From: a virus
Direction: 5' to 3' (one strand)
Length of the DNA stretch: 20,519 nucleotides
IMG/VR virus record: IMGVR_UViG_3300022822_000585
Location: 1 to 20,519 of that record
The notes beneath the pieces are model-generated. The model was not told the origin of the DNA and did not search any database. It was given only the letters and a program-made list of their open reading frames with translations. How positions within the stretch are numbered: position 1 is the stretch's first letter; each line of letters begins with the position of its first letter. The position numbers were made by a program, and so were the translations under genes. Below, in pieces: positions 1 to 10,678 of the stretch.

Positions 1-594
1 TTCTAGTGCATAGCTAGCGTGCAATGCCATCCAGATTGCTCTAATATGCTCTTTTTCTGAAACAACTTCGCCGAGTTCTTTACGGCAGTTAATAACGTGC
101 AACTTGTCATAGTAGTTGCCTACTGAACTTGCCATTCCAACAATTTCTTCTGTGTTGTGGATTGTGTTAAACACATCCTTAGGCACGTTATAGATATTGC
201 GGATAATATGACTGTAACTCTTGCTGTGAATGTTAGTTTCAAAGAAACCCCAGTTGTACATTAGCGCTTCAAGTTCAGGAAGGCTGCATACAGGAGCAAA
301 TACCTGTGTAGGACCTCTACCCTGAAGGCTATCCAAAGCAGTTTGGCGAAGTAGGTTACTAGTAAAAATATGCTTGACAGCATCGCTGGCCTCCTTAAAG
401 TCGTTACTATCTTTTGTGAGGCTTACTTCTTCTGGTTGCCAAAAGAAACCACGTGCAGTTGCATCAAAGTCTGCTATCTTCTTGTATTTGACTTCTTCAA
501 AACGTTGGATGACCACCGGACCAGCTGGGTCCAGAAACATCTTGCGATTCAGATAGTCTGTTGGTTTAGATAAATCGTACTGTGCTTTACTCAT
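1..594 (-). CDS. nrdB: Ribonucleotide reductase class Ia small subunit (R2), N-terminal part, runs off left edge
   Basis: The di-iron/tyrosyl-radical subunit of aerobic ribonucleotide reductase, which generates the radical used by NrdA to make dNTPs. I translated 198 codons from ATG 594; the C-terminal half lies outside the window. Visible R2 hallmarks are TALDSLQGRGP around residues 85-95 (Asp88, matching E. coli Asp84), then ETNIHSKSYSHIIRNIY at 119-135, with a metal-ligand Glu119, His123 and radical Tyr127. The E. coli motif is ETIHSRSY, so there is one extra residue between Glu and His here. The start is supported by a strong Shine-Dalgarno (AAGGAAG, about 9 nt upstream). The later metal ligands cannot be checked. 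Upstream is a decayed endonuclease tail; the partner nrdA is 7-10 kb away in the same direction. Confidence 0.96.
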   Translation of the reverse strand, partial: MSKAQYDLSKPTDYLNRKMFLDPAGPVVIQRFEEVKYKKIADFDATARGFFWQPEEVSLTKDSNDFKEASDAVKHIFTSNLLRQTALDSLQGRGPTQVFAPVCSLPELEALMYNWGFFETNIHSKSYSHIIRNIYNVPKDVFNTIHNTEEIVGMASSVGNYYDKLHVINCRKELGEVVSEKEHIRAIWMALHASYALE

Positions 595-1133: not shown

Positions 1134-1336
1134 TAAGTTGCAAAGTGTTGACGCACTACTGCTAGTTTGTCCTCATACTCTGCAATCTGTGCAATTTCAG
1201 CTTCTACTGCCGACATCCAGTCAGTGTGGTCATGAATAGCCATGGGATTGTGCAGCATGATCTCCACATTCATCTTGTGTTTTTGAACCTGTGCCGAAAA
1301 GTGTGCTTGCAATGTTGTTAATAGTTGATCTCTCAT
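1133..1336 (-). CDS. Small conserved phage hypothetical protein
   Basis: A 67-aa soluble helical protein, MRDQLLTTLQAHFSAQVQ at the start, with a central LHNPMAIHDHTDWM followed by a Glu/Ala-rich helix (AVEAEIAQIAEYEDKLAVV) that could form a short coiled coil. It is joined to glyA upstream by an ATGA overlap and to the next gene by TAATG, so all three are probably translated from one message. I do not recognise a known domain. Small proteins with an HDHTD-like segment and a helical tail occur in T4-like aquatic phages, which supports this being a real gene rather than a chance frame. Confidence 0.8.
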   Translation of the reverse strand: MRDQLLTTLQAHFSAQVQKHKMNVEIMLHNPMAIHDHTDWMSAVEAEIAQIAEYEDKLAVVRQHFAT

Positions 1337-2484
1337 TTTGAATCCCTTAGTATGTTAACCATTCTGTTGGCCAGCTCTTTGAACCACGCTTCGTCATGAC
1401 CGCGAGTGGTTTCTGCTGCTACACCAATACGCACACCTGATGTCTCAACAAAGCTTCTTGTGTCGCCAGGCACTCCGTTTTTATTTGCAGTGATACCATT
1501 TGCTTCCAACAAGTCAGCAAACTCGCGTCCACTGTATTGTTCTTTACGCAAGTCTATAGTCATCATGTGACACTGAGTCCCACCAGACACAATATCAACA
1601 CCGGCATCCATAAACGTTTGTGCCATTGCATGTGCATTGATACGGATACGTTTGGCGTACAACGTAAACTCTGGCTGCAATGCTTCGTAGAAACACTGTG
1701 CCTTGGCTGCAATGATGTGCATCAATGGACCGCCCTGTGTGCCTGGGAAAATAGCACTGTTGATCAGTTTGGAGTGGTCGGGATCATTCCATAAAATCAT
1801 GCCGCCACGCGGGCCGCGCAGTCCTTTGTGTGTTGTGGTTGTTACAATGTCAGCATGGGGGAACGGGCTGGGATACTCGCCGCCTGCGATTAGACCTGAA
1901 TAGTGAGCAATGTCTGCCAACAGCAGAGCACCCACGCTGGCTGCAATCTCTTCAAAACGGGCCCAGTCAATCACTTGACTGTAAGCACTGGCGCCAGCAA
2001 TCACCATTTTAGGTTGAGTGTCCCATACCAACTGTGCCACAGCATCGTAATCAATTAGTCCCTGTTCATTGACTCCGTAACTGTGTGAGTTGAACCAAGC
2101 GCCGCTGGCATTGACTTTGGCACCGTGACTTAAATGCCCACCACTGGCCAAGTCCATACCTACAATAACATCACCTGGCTTTAGAAATGCCTTGAATACT
2201 GCTAGGTTAGCATTGGCACCGGAGTGTGGTTGAACATTAGCAAAGGAACAATTAAATAGTTTGGTGGCATACTCAATAGCCAGTAGTTCTACCTTGTCTA
2301 CTTCATCGCAGCCATTGTAATAACGCTTGCCTGGCAGTCCTTCTGCATACTTGTTTGTGAAGATACTGCCACAGAGTTGCATCACTTCATCACTAGCAAA
2401 GTTCTCACTGGCAATCAGTTCAACTGTGTCTGCTTGGCGAATGCCTTCTGCAGATAATATACTTAAAATACGTTTATCAATCAT
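1333..2484 (-). CDS. glyA: Serine hydroxymethyltransferase
   Basis: A PLP enzyme converting serine plus tetrahydrofolate to glycine plus 5,10-methylene-THF, the carbon donor for thymidylate synthesis. The 383-residue protein carries the family signatures: LIASENF (23-29), NKYAEGLPGKRYYNGCD (44-60), QPHSGANAN (85-93), DIAHYSGLIA (191-200, with PLP-contacting Asp191 and His194) and TTTTHKGLRGPRGG (215-228), where Lys220 forms the internal aldimine. It is about 34 residues shorter than E. coli GlyA; the loss is at the C-terminus, which ends soon after ANRMVNILRDSK. A perfect sigma-70 promoter lies 38-66 nt upstream, and the gene leads a small operon towards nrdB. In a phage it most likely supports nucleotide synthesis together with RNR. 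Confidence 0.97.
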   Translation of the reverse strand: MIDKRILSILSAEGIRQADTVELIASENFASDEVMQLCGSIFTNKYAEGLPGKRYYNGCDEVDKVELLAIEYATKLFNCSFANVQPHSGANANLAVFKAFLKPGDVIVGMDLASGGHLSHGAKVNASGAWFNSHSYGVNEQGLIDYDAVAQLVWDTQPKMVIAGASAYSQVIDWARFEEIAASVGALLLADIAHYSGLIAGGEYPSPFPHADIVTTTTHKGLRGPRGGMILWNDPDHSKLINSAIFPGTQGGPLMHIIAAKAQCFYEALQPEFTLYAKRIRINAHAMAQTFMDAGVDIVSGGTQCHMMTIDLRKEQYSGREFADLLEANGITANKNGVPGDTRSFVETSGVRIGVAAETTRGHDEAWFKELANRMVNILRDSK

Positions 2485-2521
2485 TTTAGTTGTTTTCTCA
2501 TAATGTCTTGCTCACTATATA

Positions 2522-2550
2522 ATTATACATTTTTATTCATCTTGTGTCAA
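2522..2550 (-). promoter_or_regulatory. Perfect consensus sigma-70 promoter upstream of glyA
   Basis: On the minus strand TTGACA (2550-2545), a 17-nt spacer, then TATAAT (2527-2522): all 12 consensus bases with optimal spacing. The predicted start is near 2514-2516, about 30 nt before the glyA ATG. It needs only host RNA polymerase, so glyA and the genes leading to nrdB could be expressed immediately after infection. Confidence 0.85.
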
Positions 2551-2599
2551 CATCCCAAGTGAGTTTTCCAAAAATCAGTTTAACTAAGTCTGCATTCAT
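2537..2599 (-). other. Possible 20-codon ORF resembling the N-terminus of cytochrome bo3 oxidase subunit I
   Basis: A short open frame between coq7 and glyA encodes a 20-residue peptide containing LIFGKLTWD before stopping at TGA 2537-2539. From memory, CyoB (cytochrome bo-type ubiquinol oxidase subunit I) proteins begin with a very similar FGKLTWDA-type segment. The last codons overlap the -35 box of the glyA promoter. No good ribosome-binding site is visible. It may be a relic of a captured host gene or chance similarity. Confidence 0.25.
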
Positions 2600-2619
2600 A
2601 TTGTATCTTCTGTATATAG

Positions 2620-2645
2620 GTTCCGTGCAATAACTGCACGACAAC
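2620..2645 (-). other. Hairpin in the coq7-glyA intergenic region
   Basis: A perfect 6-bp stem CGTGCA / TGCACG with a 5-nt loop, extended by GTT / AAC pairs across a small bulge. No T-run follows on either strand, so it does not look like an intrinsic terminator. It sits between coq7 and the glyA promoter, just downstream of a late-like box AATAAATAC (2681-2674). It could be an mRNA processing or stability element. The rest of the 216-base gap (2485-2700) holds only the promoter and short ORF listed separately. Confidence 0.35.
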
Positions 2646-2700
2646 AATGGTTTATTTTAAGTATTTGAATGCGTATTTATTCATATCTCAGTGTTTGTAC

Positions 2701-3327
2701 TTATATTCTGTAAGCGACAGTAGTCATAATCTTACTAACTGCTTTCATGACAGATTTAGCACTTTTAGGAAGTTCTGTAGCGCCAGCGTGTACCGCTGCG
2801 GCGCCGTGTGCTGCTTCATCTTGTTTCATCTGTGTTATAATAACTCGACTAGCGTGATCATTCACAGGCAATTTCGACAAGTGATCTGCCAGATGCTGTT
2901 CCACTTGCCTTTCTGTTTCTGCTACAAATCCCAAACTTTGAGCATCGCCGCCTATTTTACCAGCTGCGTACCCCATTGCAAATGCTCCAATGTACCAAAT
3001 AGGATTCAGTAGGCTAGGCTTACCTCCCAATTGGTCTAATCTCTGCCGGCACCATACTAGGTGATCTACTTCTTCTCGACCTGCTTTTTCAAACAGGTTT
3101 TTAAGTGCAGAGTCTTGAGTGGCTAGGCATTGTCCACTATACAATGCTTGGGCGCACACTTCCCCTACGTGATTCACTCGCATTAATGCTGCACTGTGAT
3201 TGTTTTCTTTTTCAGTCAGTTCGGCAGTATCGGCTTTGCAAGTTGGTGACGATCTGCTAGCATAGGGTTTTGAAAACAGTGTGCGCAGGGCACAGTCAGC
3301 GGCGATTAATAAATGGTCTATATTCAT
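2701..3327 (-). CDS. coq7: Coq7-type demethoxyubiquinone hydroxylase
   Basis: A ferritin-like di-iron monooxygenase that hydroxylates 2-polyprenyl-3-methyl-6-methoxy-1,4-benzoquinone in the penultimate step of ubiquinone synthesis, acting at the inner membrane. The 208-aa protein has the family ligand set: MRVNHVGEVCAQALY (Glu56), REEVDHLVWC (Glu86, His89), AETERQVEQHL (Glu139) and QDEAAHG (Glu171, His174). SLLNPIWYIGAFAMGYAAG (105-123) is the family's hydrophobic segment, and the protein ends in MTTVAYRI, as many betaproteobacterial homologues do. Its ATG lies 7 nt after the fpr stop, so it is co-transcribed with fpr and AOX. All ligands are intact, so an active enzyme is expected. Its presence next to a quinol oxidase suggests the phage manipulates the host quinone pool. 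Confidence 0.95.
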   Translation of the reverse strand: MNIDHLLIAADCALRTLFSKPYASRSSPTCKADTAELTEKENNHSAALMRVNHVGEVCAQALYSGQCLATQDSALKNLFEKAGREEVDHLVWCRQRLDQLGGKPSLLNPIWYIGAFAMGYAAGKIGGDAQSLGFVAETERQVEQHLADHLSKLPVNDHASRVIITQMKQDEAAHGAAAVHAGATELPKSAKSVMKAVSKIMTTVAYRI

Positions 3328-3333
3328 ATCTTA

Positions 3334-4080
3334 TTATGTATCCACGAACGCTCGTTCGATTATGTACTGCCCTGGGTCACGCAAACTGCCTTCTTTCATA
3401 CCTTGTTGTTCACACCACAGCATGATTTCTTTATTAAAAGCCATGTTTCCGCACAGCATGATTTTGTCTTGTGCAGGGTCTATTGCCAACTTACCCGAAC
3501 TTAGTTGAGTCGTGATTCTGGGATCGCCCTGACCAGTAACCACAGGTTGATAATCCATCAGACTTTTGATTGTGGCATGTAGCTCACCGGATCTGTGATG
3601 ATCCAAGAATGCTGTGTGCAACTCACGGCGATATGCCAAATCTGCTGCATCTCTTACGCTGTGTACCAAATGAATCCGAGACCAAGTTTCCAAAGTTTCC
3701 AAGTCTTGAATCAGACTCATAAACGGTGCTAGACCAGTGCCAGTGGCTAGTAACCATAGTTCGCCGCCTTTGAGTAAAGCATCATTTCGCAGTGTGCCAG
3801 TAGGCTTGTCACCTATAATGACTTGATCGCCTATCTTGATATGTTGCAATCGACTGGTCAATGCACCATCGGCTATTTTAATACTGAGAAACTCTAGTTC
3901 TTCACTCCAAGGCGGACTCACCATACTGTAGGCTCTGCGAATACGTTTTCCTTCGTGCATAACACCAATTAATACAAATTCGCCAGCGTTAAATCTAAAT
4001 GCAGAGTTTCTAGTAGTCCTTAAACTGAAAGTTCGATCACTCCAGTGATGTACAGCAGTGACTGTTTCTTCAAATATCAT
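3334..4080 (-). CDS. fpr: Ferredoxin/flavodoxin-NADP+ reductase
   Basis: A bacterial-type FAD enzyme passing electrons between NADPH and ferredoxin or flavodoxin. Counting from ATG 4080 (248 aa): FAD-binding RRAYSMVSP at 48-56, DGALTSRLQ at 71-79, and the NADP(H)-binding glycine-rich LLATGTGLAPF at 110-120. The C-terminus GQYIIERAFVDT matches the Fpr group whose tail stacks near the flavin. A GTG six bases earlier (4086) is in frame, but the ATG has the better-placed GGAA. It lies between AOX and coq7 on the same strand. Possible jobs are feeding Fe-S assembly, reductive repair of the NrdB radical centre through a host ferredoxin, or supplying the Coq7 reaction; the sequence cannot choose among these. 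Confidence 0.95.
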   Translation of the reverse strand: MIFEETVTAVHHWSDRTFSLRTTRNSAFRFNAGEFVLIGVMHEGKRIRRAYSMVSPPWSEELEFLSIKIADGALTSRLQHIKIGDQVIIGDKPTGTLRNDALLKGGELWLLATGTGLAPFMSLIQDLETLETWSRIHLVHSVRDAADLAYRRELHTAFLDHHRSGELHATIKSLMDYQPVVTGQGDPRITTQLSSGKLAIDPAQDKIMLCGNMAFNKEIMLWCEQQGMKEGSLRDPGQYIIERAFVDT

Positions 4081-4104
4081 TCGCACTATTCCAAATAATT
4101 TGTT

Positions 4105-4707
4105 TTACTTTTTAGTATCGTAATCGTCAGCATACGCATGGTTCACTTCGCTGTGTCCTTGTTCATCGGCCCTTACCGCTATTATAACATCTCTAAGTCT
4201 AGCGTCAACAGGTAAATTCCAATAATCGATGGCTAATTGTGGTGCAGGCACATTGAGCTCTGGATTGGAATCAACCTGGGCCAGATAATCTGTGTAACTG
4301 ATCACTGCTTCTTCTTCAAAATAGCCCACAATCCTATGTGCTGTGCGGGGGAAGAATATATAGATGAACAAGAACACATGCCAGAAAACAAATTGCGCCA
4401 CAAGCACCAACATACGTTCAAACCAATTAGGTTTGACGATTTCAATAAATGTCATCAAGTGCATACGTTCGTTTTCTGCCTCAGCTAACAACATTCGAAT
4501 CTTGGGACCATATCCTGTTTTCATCTGACGTAGACTTTTAAGATGCGTCCACATTCCTGCAACCATGCCAGGCACGGCTGCTACTGTTTCTAGTACAACT
4601 GCTCTGTGTCCGTACTGTTTTAGAAAGAATGTATCTGCTACCCAGCGCAGCATCATAGTAAATCGTTTTGCGTTGCGGTCGCTGATAGTAGTAGGGATAT
4701 GATGCAT
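4105..4707 (-). CDS. aox: Alternative oxidase (cyanide-insensitive quinol oxidase)
   Basis: A membrane-bound di-iron quinol oxidase that reduces oxygen to water with electrons from ubiquinol, without pumping protons. The 200-aa sequence contains every family motif: LETVAAVPGMV (Glu40), AENERMHLMTF (Glu80, His83), GYFEEEAVISYT (128-139, one of Glu131-133 as ligand) and RADEQGHSEVNH (Glu182, His185). A hydrophobic stretch at 100-119 fits the membrane-embedded helix. LPVD and PAPQLAIDYW match mitochondrial/proteobacterial AOX rather than the plastid-type PTOX of cyanophages. The N-terminus is short, with no targeting peptide. The ATG follows directly on the aldolase stop (TAA-ATG), so translation is probably coupled. 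Confidence 0.96.
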   Translation of the reverse strand: MHHIPTTISDRNAKRFTMMLRWVADTFFLKQYGHRAVVLETVAAVPGMVAGMWTHLKSLRQMKTGYGPKIRMLLAEAENERMHLMTFIEIVKPNWFERMLVLVAQFVFWHVFLFIYIFFPRTAHRIVGYFEEEAVISYTDYLAQVDSNPELNVPAPQLAIDYWNLPVDARLRDVIIAVRADEQGHSEVNHAYADDYDTKK

Positions 4708-5364
4708 TTAATATTTTCCACTTGCTAACACAATTTTGCAAATATGTTCCAATCTCTCTACATGTTCATACGCCCGCCATGGTGTTGTGTCAATAGCAAC
4801 AACACCGTGTCCTTTGATACCTACGATGTCATAGGCAGTATTACCGTCTTTATCTAGTTCTAAATTCCAGTGGCATTGATCTGCAAGTTCCTGACTGATA
4901 GGAGCAACATCTCCTACATTAGGCGCAACTCGAGTATAGCGATTAAGTTCTGGAAACGCATCACTAACTGTGCTTAAATTAATGCCAGCATGCATTGCTG
5001 CAATACAGTAAGTAGGATGTACATGTACAACTACTCGAACTTCACCCGCATGTTGGCCCATTTCTTTTTGTAAGCCAAAGTGCAATGGAATCTCACCGCT
5101 TGGTGTTAAGTTCTTACTAATATCAGTATAAGGTAACTCTTGCCAGCTATAGTTAATGGCAGCAGTACCGTGACCACTATGTATAGTTTTATCAATACCA
5201 ATCTTTTTAAACTGATCAGGTTGCAGAGTCTGCTTTCGGACACCACTAGGTGTAATGTAAAAGTGGTCTCTATCGTGATGGCGAATACTCACGTTGCCGT
5301 CACGGCTGGTAATCCAATTGCGTTTATACGCATCTAACATCACATCACATATTGTTTCTAACAT
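4708..5364 (-). CDS. Class II aldolase/adducin family protein (fuculose-phosphate aldolase-like)
   Basis: A 218-aa Zn-dependent class II aldolase fold, close in length to E. coli FucA (215 aa). Motifs: TSRDGNVSIR (19-28, phosphate loop), YITPSGVR (37-43), SGEIPLH (89-95, catalytic Glu91), VVHVHPTY (112-119, Zn ligands His114 and His116) and IKGHGVVAID (183-192, third Zn ligand His186). All metal ligands are present, so it should be active, but the substrate could be a sugar phosphate (fuculose- or ribulose-type) or a methylthioribulose-phosphate-like compound. The start at 5364 avoids 75 bases of overlap with iscA. It sits 4 nt after the iscA stop and abuts AOX, so it belongs to the same operon. 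Confidence 0.92.
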   Translation of the reverse strand: MLETICDVMLDAYKRNWITSRDGNVSIRHHDRDHFYITPSGVRKQTLQPDQFKKIGIDKTIHSGHGTAAINYSWQELPYTDISKNLTPSGEIPLHFGLQKEMGQHAGEVRVVVHVHPTYCIAAMHAGINLSTVSDAFPELNRYTRVAPNVGDVAPISQELADQCHWNLELDKDGNTAYDIVGIKGHGVVAIDTTPWRAYEHVERLEHICKIVLASGKY

Positions 5365-5368
5365 TACT

Positions 5369-5695
5369 TTATACTCTAAAACTTTCACCGCAACCACACC
5401 GGTCACGCTCGTTGGGGTTAGTAAATTCAAACCCCTCATTCAATCCATTGCGTACCCAATCCACAACTATTCCGTTTAGGTAGGGTTCATCTTTGGTGCT
5501 TATTAATACAGCAAACTTAGATTGAGCATAATTTGTTACACCCTCCTCGTACTCGATGCTGTCTACATATTCTAACACATATGCCAATCCACTGCAACCA
5601 GTAGTTCTAACTGCTATTCGAATACCCACACCCTTGCCACGGCGTTCTAAATTCTGGCTAATTCGTTTACTTGCTGTTTCGGTTACGGTAATCAT
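5369..5695 (-). CDS. iscA: Iron-sulfur cluster assembly protein IscA
   Basis: An A-type Fe-S/iron carrier of 108 residues. The three conserved cysteines are at TTGCSG (Cys34) and in the C-terminal CGCGESF (Cys100, Cys102), corresponding to E. coli IscA Cys35/99/101. FTNPNERDRCGCGESF supports IscA rather than ErpA or HesB types. The ATG directly follows the iscU stop (TAG-ATG), with an AAGG inside the end of iscU as Shine-Dalgarno, indicating tight coupling. HesB/IscA-like genes are well known in marine phages; pairing with a full IscU is less common. It may load Fe-S clusters or iron on phage or host enzymes in the operon. Confidence 0.96.
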   Translation of the reverse strand: MITVTETASKRISQNLERRGKGVGIRIAVRTTGCSGLAYVLEYVDSIEYEEGVTNYAQSKFAVLISTKDEPYLNGIVVDWVRNGLNEGFEFTNPNERDRCGCGESFRV

Positions 5696-6088
5696 CTATC
5701 GCAGCCTTGATTGCTTTGTTTTGTAATCTAAAATTGCTGCTTTAAGACTATCTTCAGCCAAAATGCTGCAATGAATTTTTACGGGCGGAAGCGCCAACTC
5801 CTCTGCAATCTGACTATTTTTAATAGTGCTTGCTTGATCCAATGTCAATCCTTTTATCATTTCTGTTACAAGGCTTGAACTTGCAATTGCACTGCCACAT
5901 CCATATGCCTTGAACTTTGCATCAATTATAATATCTGTCGCTGGATCAACTTTAATACTTAACTGTAAAAGGTCACCGCATGCCGGTGCTCCGACGAGTC
6001 CAAAACCTACATCACTATCTTTTTTATTAAGAGTTCCTACATTTCTGGGGTTCTCATAATGGTCCACCACAGCAGCTGAATAAGCCAT
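5696..6088 (-). CDS. iscU: Iron-sulfur cluster scaffold IscU
   Basis: A scaffold on which IscS builds [2Fe-2S] clusters. The 130-aa protein is complete: PACGD (Cys37, Asp39), YGCGSAIASSS (Cys64), the chaperone-recognition motif LPPVK (100-104) and KIHCSILAEDS (His106, Cys107). N-terminal YENPRNVG is also typical. All ligands and the HscA-binding motif remain, so it could plug directly into the host Isc machinery; no phage IscS or HscA is seen here. Its Shine-Dalgarno (TAGGAG, 8 nt upstream) lies within the last codons of the preceding HNH endonuclease, so that insertion left iscU translation intact. Confidence 0.97.
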   Translation of the reverse strand: MAYSAAVVDHYENPRNVGTLNKKDSDVGFGLVGAPACGDLLQLSIKVDPATDIIIDAKFKAYGCGSAIASSSLVTEMIKGLTLDQASTIKNSQIAEELALPPVKIHCSILAEDSLKAAILDYKTKQSRLR

Positions 6089-6089
6089 T

Positions 6090-6695
6090 TTAATCTCCTA
6101 TTATAGATTGTACTACTTCCATCGGTTGATCAAAATGCCATTTACGACGATTCTCTTCACCCGTTATAAACTGTATATTATTTCGTTGTCCTAACAATAT
6201 AGGATCTATTCCTAACTTAAACCCTTGCATTATAGAAATAATGTGATCTAATTGCAAGTCTGTAGGATGTTTCCCACAAGTTGGTATCTGCTCTCCAGCC
6301 TGTTTCATTTTTTTAAGGGTTCTATATGTTGCGTACCTGACTTTGCTTCGATACAGTTTTAACAAATCAGTTTGCGGATTTTTTAGTCTTAGATTATTAG
6401 TCTTACCTTCCCAGTTAGGATTATTTTCGCCCTTCCATTTCAGACTTTGTGTTTCACTGGACAATCCCTTATTCCAGCCCCACCCTTTCTTTAATCCTTC
6501 TGTATTCTGTTTGGCTTTTTGTTCTTCTGTAAGTTTGATACCTTTGTTCCATGGTTCATACTCTCCTCGGTTCAACGGGTTTTTGCATTTCTGAGAACAA
6601 TAATCTAAAAATCGTGGACGAGTTTCAAATTCACTCTTACAAAATAAACACTGTTTAAAATTACCATACTTGTTTTTCATACAAATATTTATCAT
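6090..6695 (-). CDS. HNH homing endonuclease with NUMOD3-like segment
   Basis: A 201-aa free-standing homing endonuclease. Residues 16-37 form a small Zn-finger (CLFC...CSQKC). Residues 49-98 carry NUMOD3-like DNA-binding repeats (PWNKGIK, WNKGLS, KWKGENNPNWEGK). The HNH nuclease follows: LQLDHIISIMQGF (148-159), GID at 162-164, RNNIQFITGEENRRKWH (171-187). It is inserted between sodB and iscU, 18 nt after the sodB stop. A late-like box AATAAATA (6718-6711) overlaps that stop, suggesting late expression as for T4 endonucleases. No clear Shine-Dalgarno is visible; Met6 (6680) is an alternative start. It is a mobile element, unlikely to help the metabolic genes around it. Confidence 0.93.
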   Translation of the reverse strand: MINICMKNKYGNFKQCLFCKSEFETRPRFLDYCSQKCKNPLNRGEYEPWNKGIKLTEEQKAKQNTEGLKKGWGWNKGLSSETQSLKWKGENNPNWEGKTNNLRLKNPQTDLLKLYRSKVRYATYRTLKKMKQAGEQIPTCGKHPTDLQLDHIISIMQGFKLGIDPILLGQRNNIQFITGEENRRKWHFDQPMEVVQSIIGD

Positions 6696-6710
6696 CTTGG
6701 CGCACCCGCT

Positions 6711-6718
6711 TATTTATT
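6711..6718 (-). promoter_or_regulatory. Candidate late promoter for the HNH endonuclease
   Basis: AATAAATA on the minus strand (7 of 8 to TATAAATA), overlapping the sodB stop. T4-type spacing would put transcription start near 6705, ten bases before the endonuclease ATG. It lacks the CT that follows most other boxes here. Confidence 0.4.
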
Positions 6719-7316
6719 GGTTACTTTGGCTGAGTACGACATTTATTGTTCTCCAGTTTATTATCTTCCAGATGTTCTGCAAGTATTTCTTTTTGTCTGC
6801 TTGATAGTCCAGGGCCCATGCATGTTCCCACCAATCAATCAACAACACAATGTCATTGCGTACTTCGTGGTTCACAATAGTTTTGATCTTGCCATCCTGT
6901 GCCAAGTACACCCATCCACTACCTTGTATCTTCATGGCCACAGTTTCGACTTGGTCTCGGAATGCATCATAGGTTTTATAATGCTGTTCGATAAACGCTA
7001 AACTGGCATCGTAAGGTCTATTAGCACCTTGTGGTGCATGTAATTGACCAAAGTATATGTTGTGCAGAAATGCGCCGGCTTCATTGAAATCAGCATCGCC
7101 TTCGCCTTTGTTGTAACGATCAACATAGCCCTTATACAAAGTGCCGTAGTGATAGTCAAGAGTTTCTTTGCTCTTGACAGGTGCCAAATCTGTAGGTTTG
7201 TAAGGCAAAGGCAAATGAAACAATTTGTCTTTTTTTCCTTCTAGGAGGACATTTCTAATAAAATTATAAGCCATTATAGTTTGTCCAGTCGGTGTCAAGA
7301 GTTGGAATCCATCCAC
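6714..7316 (-). CDS. sodB: Fe/Mn-family superoxide dismutase
   Basis: Dismutes superoxide to oxygen and hydrogen peroxide. Numbered from ATG 7316 (200 aa), the four metal ligands are His56 (LDYHYG), His85 (FLHNIYF), Asp161 and His165 (LIDWWEHAWALDY); GSGWVYLAQDGKI (132-144) is the usual core. Outer-sphere positions are atypical: Gly81 four residues before His85, as in MnSOD, and His150 where Gln or Ala is usual, so metal preference is uncertain. The protein has an N-terminal extension before LPLPYKPTDLAP. ATG 7316 has AGGAG but only 3 nt spacing; an internal ATG at 7274 (MAYNFIRNVLL) is an equally reasonable start. It lies between nrdA-b and the HNH insertion, upstream of the Fe-S genes. Confidence 0.92.
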   Translation of the reverse strand: MDGFQLLTPTGQTIMAYNFIRNVLLEGKKDKLFHLPLPYKPTDLAPVKSKETLDYHYGTLYKGYVDRYNKGEGDADFNEAGAFLHNIYFGQLHAPQGANRPYDASLAFIEQHYKTYDAFRDQVETVAMKIQGSGWVYLAQDGKIKTIVNHEVRNDIVLLIDWWEHAWALDYQADKKKYLQNIWKIINWRTINVVLSQSNQ

Positions 7317-7384: not shown

Positions 7385-8401
7385 TTACAACTTACAAGAT
7401 AAACAATCTTCCTCGTCATCAAAGTTAATTGGTTCTAGCATAGTAGGCGCATCGTCTGCAGCCATCTTGCTGCCTGCTTTGTTAATTAAACTGTAGTAGA
7501 AGGTCTTAAGGCCCCATATATGCGCCTGCATCAAGTTCTTGGCAATTAATGTAGTTGGCACTTTACGATTTGGAAAGTGTGCTGGATTGTAGAATGTGTT
7601 AGTACTAATACTTTGGTCAGTGTAGGCCGCAATAACAGCCGCTGTCTTAATGTAACCAACGCAGTCTTTCTGCTCCCACATCAGCTGATACTTGTTCTTC
7701 AACTTGTTATATTCGGGAGCAACTTGCGTAAACGATCCTGCTTTTGATTCTTTAGTGGTAATTAAACTCATTGGCATTTCAATACCATTGGTACTGTCGA
7801 TAACCACTGAACTAGACTCAACAGGAGCAACTGCACCATTGGTAGCATTGCGCACACCGTGGATTAACATTTCTTTGCGTAACGTTTCCCAATCTAATTC
7901 AGGAGTAAAGTCGGTTAACTCGTTAACGCCCTTAGCACGTAGTTCCCAAGGAAATATTCCTTGACCGTAACGAGTATGGTCGCTGTCTAAACACTTACCA
8001 CGCTCTTTAGCTAGTTCAACTGACATTTCTGTTAAGTAGAATGACTGGTGCTCTTGCCAGCTCTTAACCTCAGCCAGTGCATCTTTCTCACCGTACTTAA
8101 GGCTGCGCTTGGCATGCCAGTATGCTAGGTTAGTAATGCCAATGCCCAATGGGCGAATCTCATCGTTACTGAGTTTACTCTGTATCGACAAAAAGTCTTG
8201 ATAGTCAAGAATGTTATTTAGGCTACGATGTAGAATTCTACAAGCTCTACGCATATCCTCTGGGTTCCGGAACGCTCCCCAGTTCATAGATCCCAAGGTA
8301 CACAGGGACACTCTGCCCTCGACTTCATCAATTTCATAATACTCGTATTCGTCATCTAGTTCTTCCGGTAGACATTCTATCTCTTCATATAATGCGTTCA
8401 T
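7385..8401 (-). CDS. nrdA: Ribonucleotide reductase large subunit, C-terminal fragment (NrdA-b)
   Basis: The downstream half of a split class Ia NrdA, 338 aa. VSLCTLGSMNWGAF (31-44) holds Cys34, the equivalent of redox Cys462 of E. coli NrdA. APVESSSVV and the GLKTFYYS segment (radical-transfer Tyr pair, E. coli Tyr730/731) follow, and the C-terminal CLSCKL (Cys333, Cys336) is the thioredoxin-reducible tail. The first 29 residues are extra compared with intact NrdA and strongly acidic (13 Asp/Glu, no Lys/Arg). A proper start exists: AGGA six bases before ATG 8401, placed just after the endonuclease stop. It must assemble with NrdA-a to be active, since the catalytic Cys439 equivalent is in the other piece. 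Confidence 0.95.
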   Translation of the reverse strand: MNALYEEIECLPEELDDEYEYYEIDEVEGRVSLCTLGSMNWGAFRNPEDMRRACRILHRSLNNILDYQDFLSIQSKLSNDEIRPLGIGITNLAYWHAKRSLKYGEKDALAEVKSWQEHQSFYLTEMSVELAKERGKCLDSDHTRYGQGIFPWELRAKGVNELTDFTPELDWETLRKEMLIHGVRNATNGAVAPVESSSVVIDSTNGIEMPMSLITTKESKAGSFTQVAPEYNKLKNKYQLMWEQKDCVGYIKTAAVIAAYTDQSISTNTFYNPAHFPNRKVPTTLIAKNLMQAHIWGLKTFYYSLINKAGSKMAADDAPTMLEPINFDDEEDCLSCKL

Positions 8402-8409
8402 TGTTCATC

Positions 8410-9141
8410 CTAGTTATTTCTTAAAAGTTTGCCATGTTTTATCAAAAGATGTCTACTTATTCCAGTTGCATCTATTGCCTCAACTAATGTGTTATATGTA
8501 ACATCATTATATTTTATTTTTGGGTCAGCATTGGCTCTTTTTGCTTTTTTTACGCCATCACTGTTTATTTTACTTTTTTCACTATCTGTTAGATATTGTT
8601 TTTCCTTAAACTCATATATAACATTTCTGTTGTTAGTAAGTTTACGACACTTATATCCTTTATAGTGTCCTCTATTGCCTCTTGCTACAGCACTCATTGC
8701 ACTAGCATTTAATCCATTATTTCGACAAAATTCTAACATATTTTCTAAAATTAAATGTTCGCCGGTTGGAGTAGTAATTTCCCAAGTATCTGTTAGTTTT
8801 GCTTTTTGTTCAGCAGACATTGGAAGATTTTTATTGCCGCCACCATCAATGCCGTTTTCTTCAATTAGGTTTGCCCAAATTCTTTCACCGTCTGTGTTCC
8901 TAGCATTTACAATATTATTTTCTTTGCTAAAATTAATAGCAAATTGATATATCTGGTCTTTGTTCTCAAATAATTGACACCATACTGTTTCAACTTCGGT
9001 GCCGTGTTCTTTAAGATGCCTTTTCCAATAAGTACCAGACCCTAGATATTTTATAGGGTCTTTTCCGGTAGTTTTACAAAGATATTTCAATCCAGTAATT
9101 TTATGTTTCTTAATCATTAGCCACGTGGGTGTAAAAGTCAT
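8410..9141 (-). CDS. Free-standing homing endonuclease splitting nrdA (GIY-YIG/Seg-like with NUMOD1/IENR1 motif)
   Basis: A 243-aa protein inserted between the two nrdA halves. Its N-terminus (residues 8-45: LMIKKHKITGLKYLCKTTG, KYLGSGTYWKRHL) and EERIWANL-type and GIDGG segments (to about 100) match a family of phage Seg-like homing endonucleases distantly related to GIY-YIG enzymes; assignment is by resemblance only. Residues 132-168 (NMLEFCRNNGLNASAMSAVARG, GYKCRKL) fit a NUMOD1/IENR1 helix-turn-helix DNA-binding repeat, with a second partial one near the C-terminus. Members I recall usually have YFGKT where this has YLCKT, so nuclease activity is uncertain. A hairpin covering its ribosome-binding site and a late-like promoter in the loop suggest T4-style timing control. 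Confidence 0.85.
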   Translation of the reverse strand: MTFTPTWLMIKKHKITGLKYLCKTTGKDPIKYLGSGTYWKRHLKEHGTEVETVWCQLFENKDQIYQFAINFSKENNIVNARNTDGERIWANLIEENGIDGGGNKNLPMSAEQKAKLTDTWEITTPTGEHLILENMLEFCRNNGLNASAMSAVARGNRGHYKGYKCRKLTNNRNVIYEFKEKQYLTDSEKSKINSDGVKKAKRANADPKIKYNDVTYNTLVEAIDATGISRHLLIKHGKLLRNN

Positions 9142-9149
9142 TTATTATT

Positions 9150-9193
9150 CCTAAAGTACATTGTAGTTATTTATCATTACTATGTACTTTAGG
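9150..9193 (-). promoter_or_regulatory. Ribosome-binding-site hairpin upstream of the endonuclease
   Basis: A perfect 12-bp inverted repeat, CCTAAAGTACAT (9193-9182) and ATGTACTTTAGG (9161-9150), with a 20-nt loop. The 3' arm ends in TTTAGG, so in transcripts reading through from nrdA-a the Shine-Dalgarno (TAGGA) for the endonuclease at 9141 would be buried. No T-run follows, so it is not a terminator. The layout copies the I-TevI control known in phage T4. Confidence 0.75.
9168..9175 (-). promoter_or_regulatory. Candidate late promoter inside the hairpin loop
   Basis: GATAAATA, 7 of 8 to the T4 late box. With T4 spacing (+1 six bases beyond the box) RNA would start near 9162, leaving out the 5' arm of the hairpin and exposing the ribosome-binding site for the endonuclease. 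Confidence 0.55.
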
Positions 9194-9202
9194 CACGTTT
9201 AA

Positions 9203-10678
9203 CTATGATATCTTTCTGATCTTAACTATATCATTAGACTTGTTTTTCATAAACTCATCTACCTTATCTTTTTTAACACGAACTGTCTTTCGTGTTGGAT
9301 CCAGGCGTTTGAATGATTTGGTTGGTAATAGAATCTCACAACACAAGTTACTTTGATAAATCGCATGATATTCAGGATTGAAAGGCCCTTGGTTCATTAC
9401 ATTATCAATGAATACAAGATATATTCGACCTGTGTCCGTGCGTTCCTTCAAAATACCACTCTTGAACACTTCTTCAGCACTCATAGTCTTTTTACGTAGA
9501 CCTTTCTGCTTTTCGTACTTGACATACAGTTCTTCAAACAAAGAGGTATCTCTGTAGAACGCTTCATACAAGTCAGGTACTTCATTAGGGTCAAAGAATG
9601 TTATTTGTTCTTTGTTCTTGAACCGTCTCCAGAAGAAGGCAGAAAGAACCACTCCGTAATCCATATGTCGGACTCGAGTTTCTTCAGTGCCTTGATTATT
9701 TTTAAGCACAATAAGATCATCAAACTGATGATGCCAAATAGGATAAAACACTGTAGCACTAGCATTACGAATTCCACCTTGTGAACATGAACGCAAATCA
9801 CCAAACCATTTCTTTAAGAACGGTATCATGCCTGTGTGTTGAATTTCCCCGCCACGAATCGGGGCACCTAATGAACGTAGACGTCCAATTTCTAAACCAA
9901 TGCCAGCACGTTTGCTAGCATACTTTGCCATCATCTCACCAGATGCAAAAATACTATCCAAGTCATCATCGCTACGAATAAGAACACAGCTACTAAATTG
10001 CTTAGTAGGAGTGCCCAAACCGGCCAAGACCGGAGTTGCAAGAGTAAAGAGTCCATCACTAGCTGCATTGTAATATTCTTTGATGTAACGCATACGTGCG
10101 CCGCTTGGTTCTTCTTTGTGAAAAATCGTAGCAGATGCAACCATGTATCTAATCTGTGGAGTTTCGTAAATTTCCTTTGTTGCACGATTACGTACCAAGT
10201 ACTTTTCAATTAACTGTTCAATGGCTGCATATCCATACTGTTCATCTTTTTCATGATCCAGCATGTCATCCATCTTGTTCCACTCGTCTTGACTGTACCA
10301 GTCTAATAATTCACTAGTGTACAGGCCAACAGCAACATTCTTCTTTACAATTTCGTAAAGGTGGGGAACTTCATATGACTCATATACATTCTTCCTCAAC
10401 ATTGATAGCCGCTGTTTACCTGCTACATATTGATAGTTAGTATGTCCTACATCGGGATTTTGTTCTACATCGATTAGGTCAACAATAGCACGTAATGTGA
10501 TACCGTCAATTTCTTCTGTTGTTATGTTATCGTAAAAGTGCAATTGCGCTTTAATCTCAATCATTGACTGACTGACATCTGCAATACCTTTACATACTTT
10601 TGCGATCTGTGCCTGCCACTTCTCGATCATCAATGGCTCTTTCGCTCCACTTCTTTTTATTACCGTAATCGTTGTCAT
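9203..10678 (-). CDS. nrdA: Ribonucleotide reductase large subunit, N-terminal fragment (NrdA-a)
   Basis: The upstream half of split class Ia NrdA, 491 aa. Residues 1-90 are an ATP-cone (VIKRSGAKEPL, TTEEIDGITLRAIVDLID), so ATP/dATP activity control is likely kept. The catalytic barrel begins with TPTKQFSSCVLI (Cys231, E. coli Cys225) and has QSNLCCEILLPTK (Asn444, Cys446, Glu448, matching E. coli Asn437, Cys439, Glu441). Homology ends near FKRLD (456-460); the last 31 residues are foreign and basic. The matching C-terminal cysteine (Cys462 equivalent) is in NrdA-b. GAGG six bases before ATG 10678 is a good ribosome-binding site. Aeromonas phage Aeh1 is a known precedent for a split NrdA that works as two polypeptides. 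Confidence 0.96.
   Translation of the reverse strand: MTTITVIKRSGAKEPLMIEKWQAQIAKVCKGIADVSQSMIEIKAQLHFYDNITTEEIDGITLRAIVDLIDVEQNPDVGHTNYQYVAGKQRLSMLRKNVYESYEVPHLYEIVKKNVAVGLYTSELLDWYSQDEWNKMDDMLDHEKDEQYGYAAIEQLIEKYLVRNRATKEIYETPQIRYMVASATIFHKEEPSGARMRYIKEYYNAASDGLFTLATPVLAGLGTPTKQFSSCVLIRSDDDLDSIFASGEMMAKYASKRAGIGLEIGRLRSLGAPIRGGEIQHTGMIPFLKKWFGDLRSCSQGGIRNASATVFYPIWHHQFDDLIVLKNNQGTEETRVRHMDYGVVLSAFFWRRFKNKEQITFFDPNEVPDLYEAFYRDTSLFEELYVKYEKQKGLRKKTMSAEEVFKSGILKERTDTGRIYLVFIDNVMNQGPFNPEYHAIYQSNLCCEILLPTKSFKRLDPTRKTVRVKKDKVDEFMKNKSNDIVKIRKIS

Follow-up and report, generated by a model that had tools for sequence, protein, structure and literature searches.

A split nrdA gene in a freshwater phage and the charged tails that appear to travel with its homing endonuclease

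Introduction

Aeromonas phage Aeh1 is the textbook case of an endonuclease that cuts an essential enzyme in two without killing that enzyme. Its gene for the alpha subunit of ribonucleotide reductase (RNR) is divided into nrdA-a and nrdA-b, with the endonuclease gene mobE in between, and MobE-type fission of nrdA has been known since 2007 (Friedrich 2007). The split Aeh1 enzyme is functional (PMC2988022, PMC3653736), its activity resembles that of one-chain enzymes (PMC2988022), and its active form is (alpha-a + alpha-b)2 beta2 (PMC3267527). In the T4-like coliphages F2 and RPN226 and their relatives (MN864145, OL770073), a MobE homologue interrupts nrdA at this same position and is annotated in GenBank only as a homing endonuclease between two subunit-alpha genes. 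Here, we describe a split nrdA from a freshwater phage, found in the 20.5-kb virus record IMGVR_UViG_3300022822_000585 of IMG/VR (positions 1–20,519, together called the window below).

This locus shares with Aeh1 the gene and the break between the equivalents of E. coli C439 and C462. The two also have in common a homologous DNA-binding half in the endonuclease, a related basic tail on NrdA-a, an acidic head on NrdA-b, and a hairpin over the ribosome-binding site of the endonuclease gene. Considering our favored explanation as a whole, we judge it highly probable from these sequence comparisons that the window locus belongs to the MobE split lineage and carries a swapped nuclease head.

Results

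The window encodes NrdA in two genes, which, like all genes of the split locus, lie on the minus strand. The first, nrdA-a (9203..10678, 491 amino acids), encodes the ATP cone, the all-alpha domain, and the beginning of the catalytic barrel, including C231 (E. coli C225), N444, C446, and E448. The second, nrdA-b (7385..8401, 338 amino acids), encodes the remainder of the barrel, including C34 (E. coli C462), Y302/Y303 (E. coli Y730/Y731), and a C-terminal CxxC. The class Ia NrdA domains and the catalytic residues are present and spread over both halves, and the single barrel domain PF02867 is divided at profile position 222/223 (Pfam). Between the halves lies a free-standing homing endonuclease gene (8410..9141, minus strand, 243 amino acids). 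Its stop codon overlaps the nrdA-b ribosome-binding site, AGGA (8408..8411, minus strand), which stands six bases 5′ of the ATG. In comparison with E. coli R1 structures, NrdA-a residues 4–458 align to 5–451 and NrdA-b residues 23–328 to 451–751; therefore, NrdA is broken near E. coli residue 451, within the loop that joins C439 to C462.

A first-pass annotation of the same DNA had placed N444, C446, and E448 in NrdA-a and C34 in NrdA-b, had given NrdA-b its own ribosome-binding site and start, and had concluded that one active site is divided between two polypeptides. The open reading frame (ORF) coordinates of all three genes agree with ours, and the recomputed residue numbers, the AGGA, and the R1 alignment bear out each of these statements. 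Because ~43 contigs have the same junction, the split is not a product of chance or an assembly break.

The window endonuclease appears to be a chimera of a MobE-like DNA-binding half and a GIY-YIG-like head. Its C-terminal half (amino acids 106–243; 8413..8826, minus strand) is homologous to MobE of Aeh1 (34.6%, expect value [E] 6e-22), to MobE of the T4-like phage F2 (39.2%, E 8e-25), and to the type-2 GIY-YIG endonucleases that occupy the same site in other contigs (50.8%, E 4e-44). Its N-terminal part had no match in the N-terminal parts of Aeh1 and F2 MobE and, in the same head comparison, was unrelated to the type-2 head. This head (amino acids 1–105; 8827..9141, minus strand) is 54–61% identical to the heads of other phage homing endonucleases (L092, L096). 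In the predicted model, it adopts a beta-beta-alpha-beta-alpha fold with predicted local distance difference test (pLDDT) scores of 92–98, and the viral fold matches of the endonuclease were to GIY-YIG/Seg proteins, including SegD/SegE-like ones, at probability 0.97–1.00. Weak HNH matches were obtained in Aeh1 and F2 MobE only, with none for the window endonuclease. The motifs in the window endonuclease read WLM...KYLCK, compared to FIY...KYLG or KYFG in type 2 and other relatives. Judging from these homologies, one homologous C-terminal half is combined with three different nuclease heads (one HNH and two GIY-YIG) at this position of nrdA, and this shared half would be what recognizes the site.

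The first-pass annotation had also proposed that an intruder of Seg/GIY-like type represents a separate event at the same vulnerable site. The assignment to that type was supported for the nuclease head by its predicted fold, viral fold matches, and homologues. The proposal of an independent event, in which a Seg/GIY-YIG endonuclease invaded apart from Aeh1 MobE and the new protein ends are accidental, could account for a head that bears no relation to the HNH head of MobE and has its nearest counterparts in the heads of endonucleases outside nrdA. However, it fits poorly with the MobE homology of the C-terminal half, with an NrdA-a tail related to that of Aeh1, with a leader of the Aeh1 mobE design, and with tails that are conserved across phages and under selection. 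Homology to Aeh1, which the annotation had named as grounds for giving up independence, was found for the NrdA-a tail and for the half of the endonuclease that binds DNA, and was not found for the nuclease head. We therefore consider an independent event quite unlikely.

The two halves of NrdA carry charged extensions that intact relatives do not have. NrdA-a ends in a basic tail of 31 amino acids (codons 461–491; 9206..9298, minus strand) with a net charge of about +6, and NrdA-b begins with an acidic head (codons 1–28; 8318..8401, minus strand) with a net charge of about −13. Among the nearest 80 IMG/VR relatives of NrdA-a, 76 are uninterrupted and 4 are split, and the junction measures exactly 28 residues in every one of the 142 uninterrupted loci compared. 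The Aeh1 NrdA-a tail resembles those of contigs L007 (z 6.5, p 2e-4) and L152 (z 8.7), both scoring above all 5000 shuffles. The NrdA-a tail, thus compared, appears to be related to the Aeh1 and T4-like NrdA-a tails, significantly for L007 and L152 and more weakly for the window. A comparison of the NrdA-a tail with the C-terminal motif of the type-3 endonuclease (p 0.001–0.3) is at most suggestive of a derivation of the tail from that motif.

Tail, leader, endonuclease, and head form a ~1-kb stretch (8300..9316, minus strand) that is 98–100% identical in contigs L006 and L090, while the flanking nrdA has diverged. When the window was compared to either contig in 60-base bins, flanking nrdA was mostly 60–85% identical, and the edges of high identity fell at nrdA-a codon ~455 and nrdA-b codon ~34. 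A more diverged version in L091, with a nuclease 90% identical, has kept the structure. Given this high identity amid diverged flanks, the tails travel with the endonuclease as one unit. The docking tails of Aeh1 have reportedly been ascribed to a mobile element before, in the title of Crona 2011.

Ordinary recombination or chimeric assembly, rather than movement of a cassette, might also leave such a pattern. Homing is itself recombination, and L006 contains a separate patch (nrdA-a bases 900–1080) that is 97–98% identical to the window within an otherwise diverged nrdA-a, suggesting an independent recombination. However, both edges of identity coincide with the edges of the insertion, the three records (window, L006, and L090) were obtained from different IMG datasets, and the diverged L091 keeps the structure. 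This alternative strikes us as distinctly improbable.

The search for split loci (scans with the endonuclease, with the head, and with two degenerate DNA patterns) recovered about 43 contigs in which nrdA carries this tail, this head, or both at the identical position; three of these contigs, including the window, are mutually identical over the shared stretch. In these contigs, the junction gap holds one of three endonuclease types or none. Type 1 is the window’s endonuclease (window, L006, L090, L091). Type 2, also a GIY-YIG endonuclease, has a C-terminal half of the type-1 kind (L007, L152, L227–L229, L233, L240–L242, L249, L255). Type 3, the remaining GIY-YIG endonuclease, has a C-terminal half unlike that of types 1 and 2 and is often accompanied by small accessory ORFs (L009, L148, L150, L231, L234, L238, L243, L245, L259). 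The nuclease-free junctions have gaps of 7 bases (L008, L237), 45 bases (L151, L232, L236), or 597 bases (L147, L244). In the 597-base gap, the type-3 leader runs straight into the final codons (QGRTL-stop) of a type-3 endonuclease and, in L147, on into the accessory ORFs, a junction that reads as the deletion scar of a type-3 nuclease. The split has outlived its nuclease in three phage types, one of them with a precise deletion scar. As for the type-3 nuclease itself, its tail and head, which are the same as in the other types, make a swap within an already split gene likelier than a second fission.

Two further features were seen around these junctions. A short accessory ORF ending in HFGVE(E)-stop runs up to or into the start of nrdA-b and contains the ribosome-binding site of that gene (L009 3784–4002, L147, L150, L152), and the end of this ORF is still present in the 45-base gap of L151. 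In addition, a MobE-like HNH endonuclease gene lies 3′ of nrdA-b in L007 (6274–7050) and L244, an arrangement that we take to be comparable to that of T4, in which mobE stands between nrdA and nrdB.

To assess selection on the split gene, we compared proportions of non-synonymous and synonymous differences (pN/pS). Between the window halves and the halves of other split phages, pN/pS was 0.13–0.21 at near-saturated synonymous divergence, and the intact control gave 0.22. The values for tails and heads were 0.24 and 0.10, respectively. Both halves, the tail, and the head are therefore under purifying selection. It could still be supposed that the halves are non-functional relics of a decaying gene in a phage that relies on host RNR, as the insertion lies between catalytic residues and the window has only part of nrdB. 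Such decay is very improbable in light of pN/pS values far below 1 in both halves and similar to the intact control, the low values in tail and head, the about 40 contigs without decay, and the retention of the split after nuclease loss. Purifying selection and persistence without the nuclease argue strongly for a working two-subunit NrdA, and the first-pass proposal of a functional genes-in-pieces enzyme is well supported on the same grounds. By analogy to Aeh1, the split NrdA would be enzymatically active, and its halves probably dock through the opposite charges of tail and head.

A single NrdA chain could instead be restored by a split intein, as in fractured genes, or by a self-splicing intron. 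Phage RNR genes can contain either kind of element (PMC3653736), and L151 has what resembles a split intein at another position in its nrdA. At the junction itself, however, a stop codon is followed by a new start. The tail has no starting Cys/Ser, the 28-residue head has no terminal Asn before a nucleophile (Cys/Ser/Thr), and what sets split relatives apart from intact ones is a pair of charged tails rather than intein halves. No Rfam match of any family was found in the window. A split intein or group I/II intron at the nrdA junction was rejected for want of intein motifs and Rfam matches, and restoration of one chain is extremely improbable. The arrangement in L151 (2–2495) is of a different kind: nrdA is further divided at RSC|C by a short Int-N-like end (CVTPDTWVEVLDEDNSIDK-stop), followed by an unrelated ~390-amino-acid ORF and an Int-C-like stretch ending in THN before SQGG. 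The arrangement resembles a split intein placed 5′ of the MobE-type split, such that NrdA of this phage would come from three ORFs.

The leader of the endonuclease gene appears to follow the published design of Aeh1 mobE, with a hairpin over the ribosome-binding site and a late promoter-like sequence. The leader is 61 bases long, and pairing of its CCUAAAGUACAU with AUGUACUUUAGG buries the ribosome-binding site. The hairpin (9150..9193, minus strand; −17.9 kcal/mol, z −6.07) pairs the AGG of AGGA (9149–9152), and its loop contains GATAAATA (9168..9175, minus strand), a T4-type late-promoter-like sequence with a presumed promoter function. ATAAATA is found in nearly all leaders of split IMG/VR loci, at a fixed distance from the nrdA-a stop. 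Seven of eight leaders tested against shuffles fold well beyond chance (z −3.3 to −6.9); the eighth, the type-3 leader of L150, is marginal (z −1.9), and several other type-3 leaders also fold weakly. The same leader design in I-TevI, segB, and Aeh1 mobE is silent on early read-through messages and open on late ones (PMC2988022), and by analogy the window endonuclease would be expressed late. This would involve T4-type late transcription in the split-nrdA phages. A search for the T4 major capsid protein Gp23 in eight related records gave no match, but the controls gave none either. Across the window, ATAAATA occurs 9 times (6.5 expected), 8 times on the coding (minus) strand and several times just 5′ of genes (15381, 17861), where these sites are possible T4-type late promoters.

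Several results weigh against our favored explanation. For the endonuclease, neither a PDB fold search nor the Pfam nuclease models, including PF01541, gave a significant match, and its YIG motif has Cys for the usual Gly, as in several relatives. The window NrdA-a tail itself reaches only p 0.017 against the Aeh1 tail. NrdA-b heads are acidic in all cases, but their similarity to the Aeh1 and F2 heads has p 0.1–0.5 when composition is allowed for. A read-through AlphaFold model of the L244 halves, with stops as residues, was unusable (mean pLDDT 34) and gives no more than a hint of a strand-helix-strand tail and a strand in the head. Finally, holding the split genes in one clade was not rejected (p-AU, from the approximately unbiased test, 0.06 for NrdA-b and 0.74 for NrdA-a). 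The trees show 9–10 changes of split state for NrdA-b and would also agree with scattered acquisition.

The remaining neighborhood includes the 5′ part of nrdB, the partner subunit gene (1..594, minus strand), which is open at the window end and was recognized by resemblance to the full gene in L008. A small ORF 5′ of nrdB (614–742) is probably a relic of a second homing endonuclease, as it resembles the C terminus of a GIY-YIG endonuclease present intact at the same place in L008 (8548–9237). The stretch from nrdA-b to nrdB includes a metabolic block (1333–7316) with genes for superoxide dismutase, an IscU/NifU_N scaffold, class II aldolase, alternative oxidase, a flavin reductase-like protein, COQ7, and, by eye, an IscA/ErpA-like protein and serine hydroxymethyltransferase. 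A further endonuclease-like gene (6090–6695; NUMOD-like repeats, phrog_5104) separates the superoxide dismutase gene from that of IscU and has two copies of ATAAATA (6686, 6711) at its start. The alternative oxidase has more distant relatives in 9 further viral contigs and is 82% identical to the Polynucleobacter enzyme, which suggests a Polynucleobacter-like host.

Discussion

In the explanation that we favor, a homing endonuclease of the MobE lineage, with a GIY-YIG head replacing HNH, sits in the active-site hairpin of nrdA (the E. coli 451–457 loop). The mobile unit is the ~1-kb cassette rather than the nuclease gene alone. The cassette supplies the first half with its basic tail, followed by a stop codon, and the second half with a ribosome-binding site and an acidic head. 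With a leader hairpin hiding the nuclease ribosome-binding site and a late promoter in the loop, the nuclease would remain silent on early nrdA messages and be translated late. The shared C-terminal domain would then recognize uninterrupted nrdA, where a cut would let the cassette be copied in. NrdA-a and NrdA-b are expected to associate via the oppositely charged tail and head and to rebuild one barrel that works with NrdB, for which Aeh1 biochemistry is the precedent. Because the tails would rescue the enzyme, nrdA function would withstand both exchange and deletion of the nuclease, leading to a stable two-subunit NrdA. Of this, the sequences themselves show the anatomy, the homologies, the joint movement of tails and nuclease, the exchange and loss of the nuclease, and purifying selection; cleavage, late expression, docking, and catalysis are inferred.

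We also lean slightly toward a more general possibility, in which the tail-leader-head frame is a portable gene-fission adaptor that is largely independent of the resident nuclease. Unrelated nucleases would have used this frame in turn, and loss of the nuclease would leave a permanent two-subunit NrdA that docks via element-derived tails, a splicing-free counterpart of the split intein. The natural series of about 43 contigs offers direct sequence evidence for one-unit movement, head variety, and survival of the split after nuclease loss. These split genes are ready material to test how selfish DNA makes new protein subunits, and the short, oppositely charged tail pair may serve as a non-covalent protein-docking tool.

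The GIY-YIG-headed variants, the tails and nuclease as one mobile unit, and the natural nuclease-free fissions with a deletion scar are, on our comparisons, new; no description of such variants, one-unit mobility, or nuclease-free fissions was found in the open-licence papers searched. The locus resembles fractured genes with split inteins (Dassa 2009, as cited in PMC3653736) in that an essential phage gene lies in two ORFs with an endonuclease ORF between them. By contrast, no intein halves flank the nrdA junction, and the two NrdA parts would associate without splicing. With the T4 Seg family of free-standing GIY-YIG homing endonucleases, the window endonuclease shares its GIY-YIG-like head, but its C-terminal half is MobE-like and its insertion splits the target gene rather than lying beside it. 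The F2/RPN226 group comes closer, with a related tail, an acidic head, and a leader with ATAAATA and a hairpin, and differs in having an HNH head. Aeh1 MobE likewise has an HNH head where the window endonuclease has a GIY-YIG-like one. Beyond Aeh1, about 43 contigs are available here in which the nuclease has been exchanged or lost, together with direct evidence of tails traveling with the nuclease.

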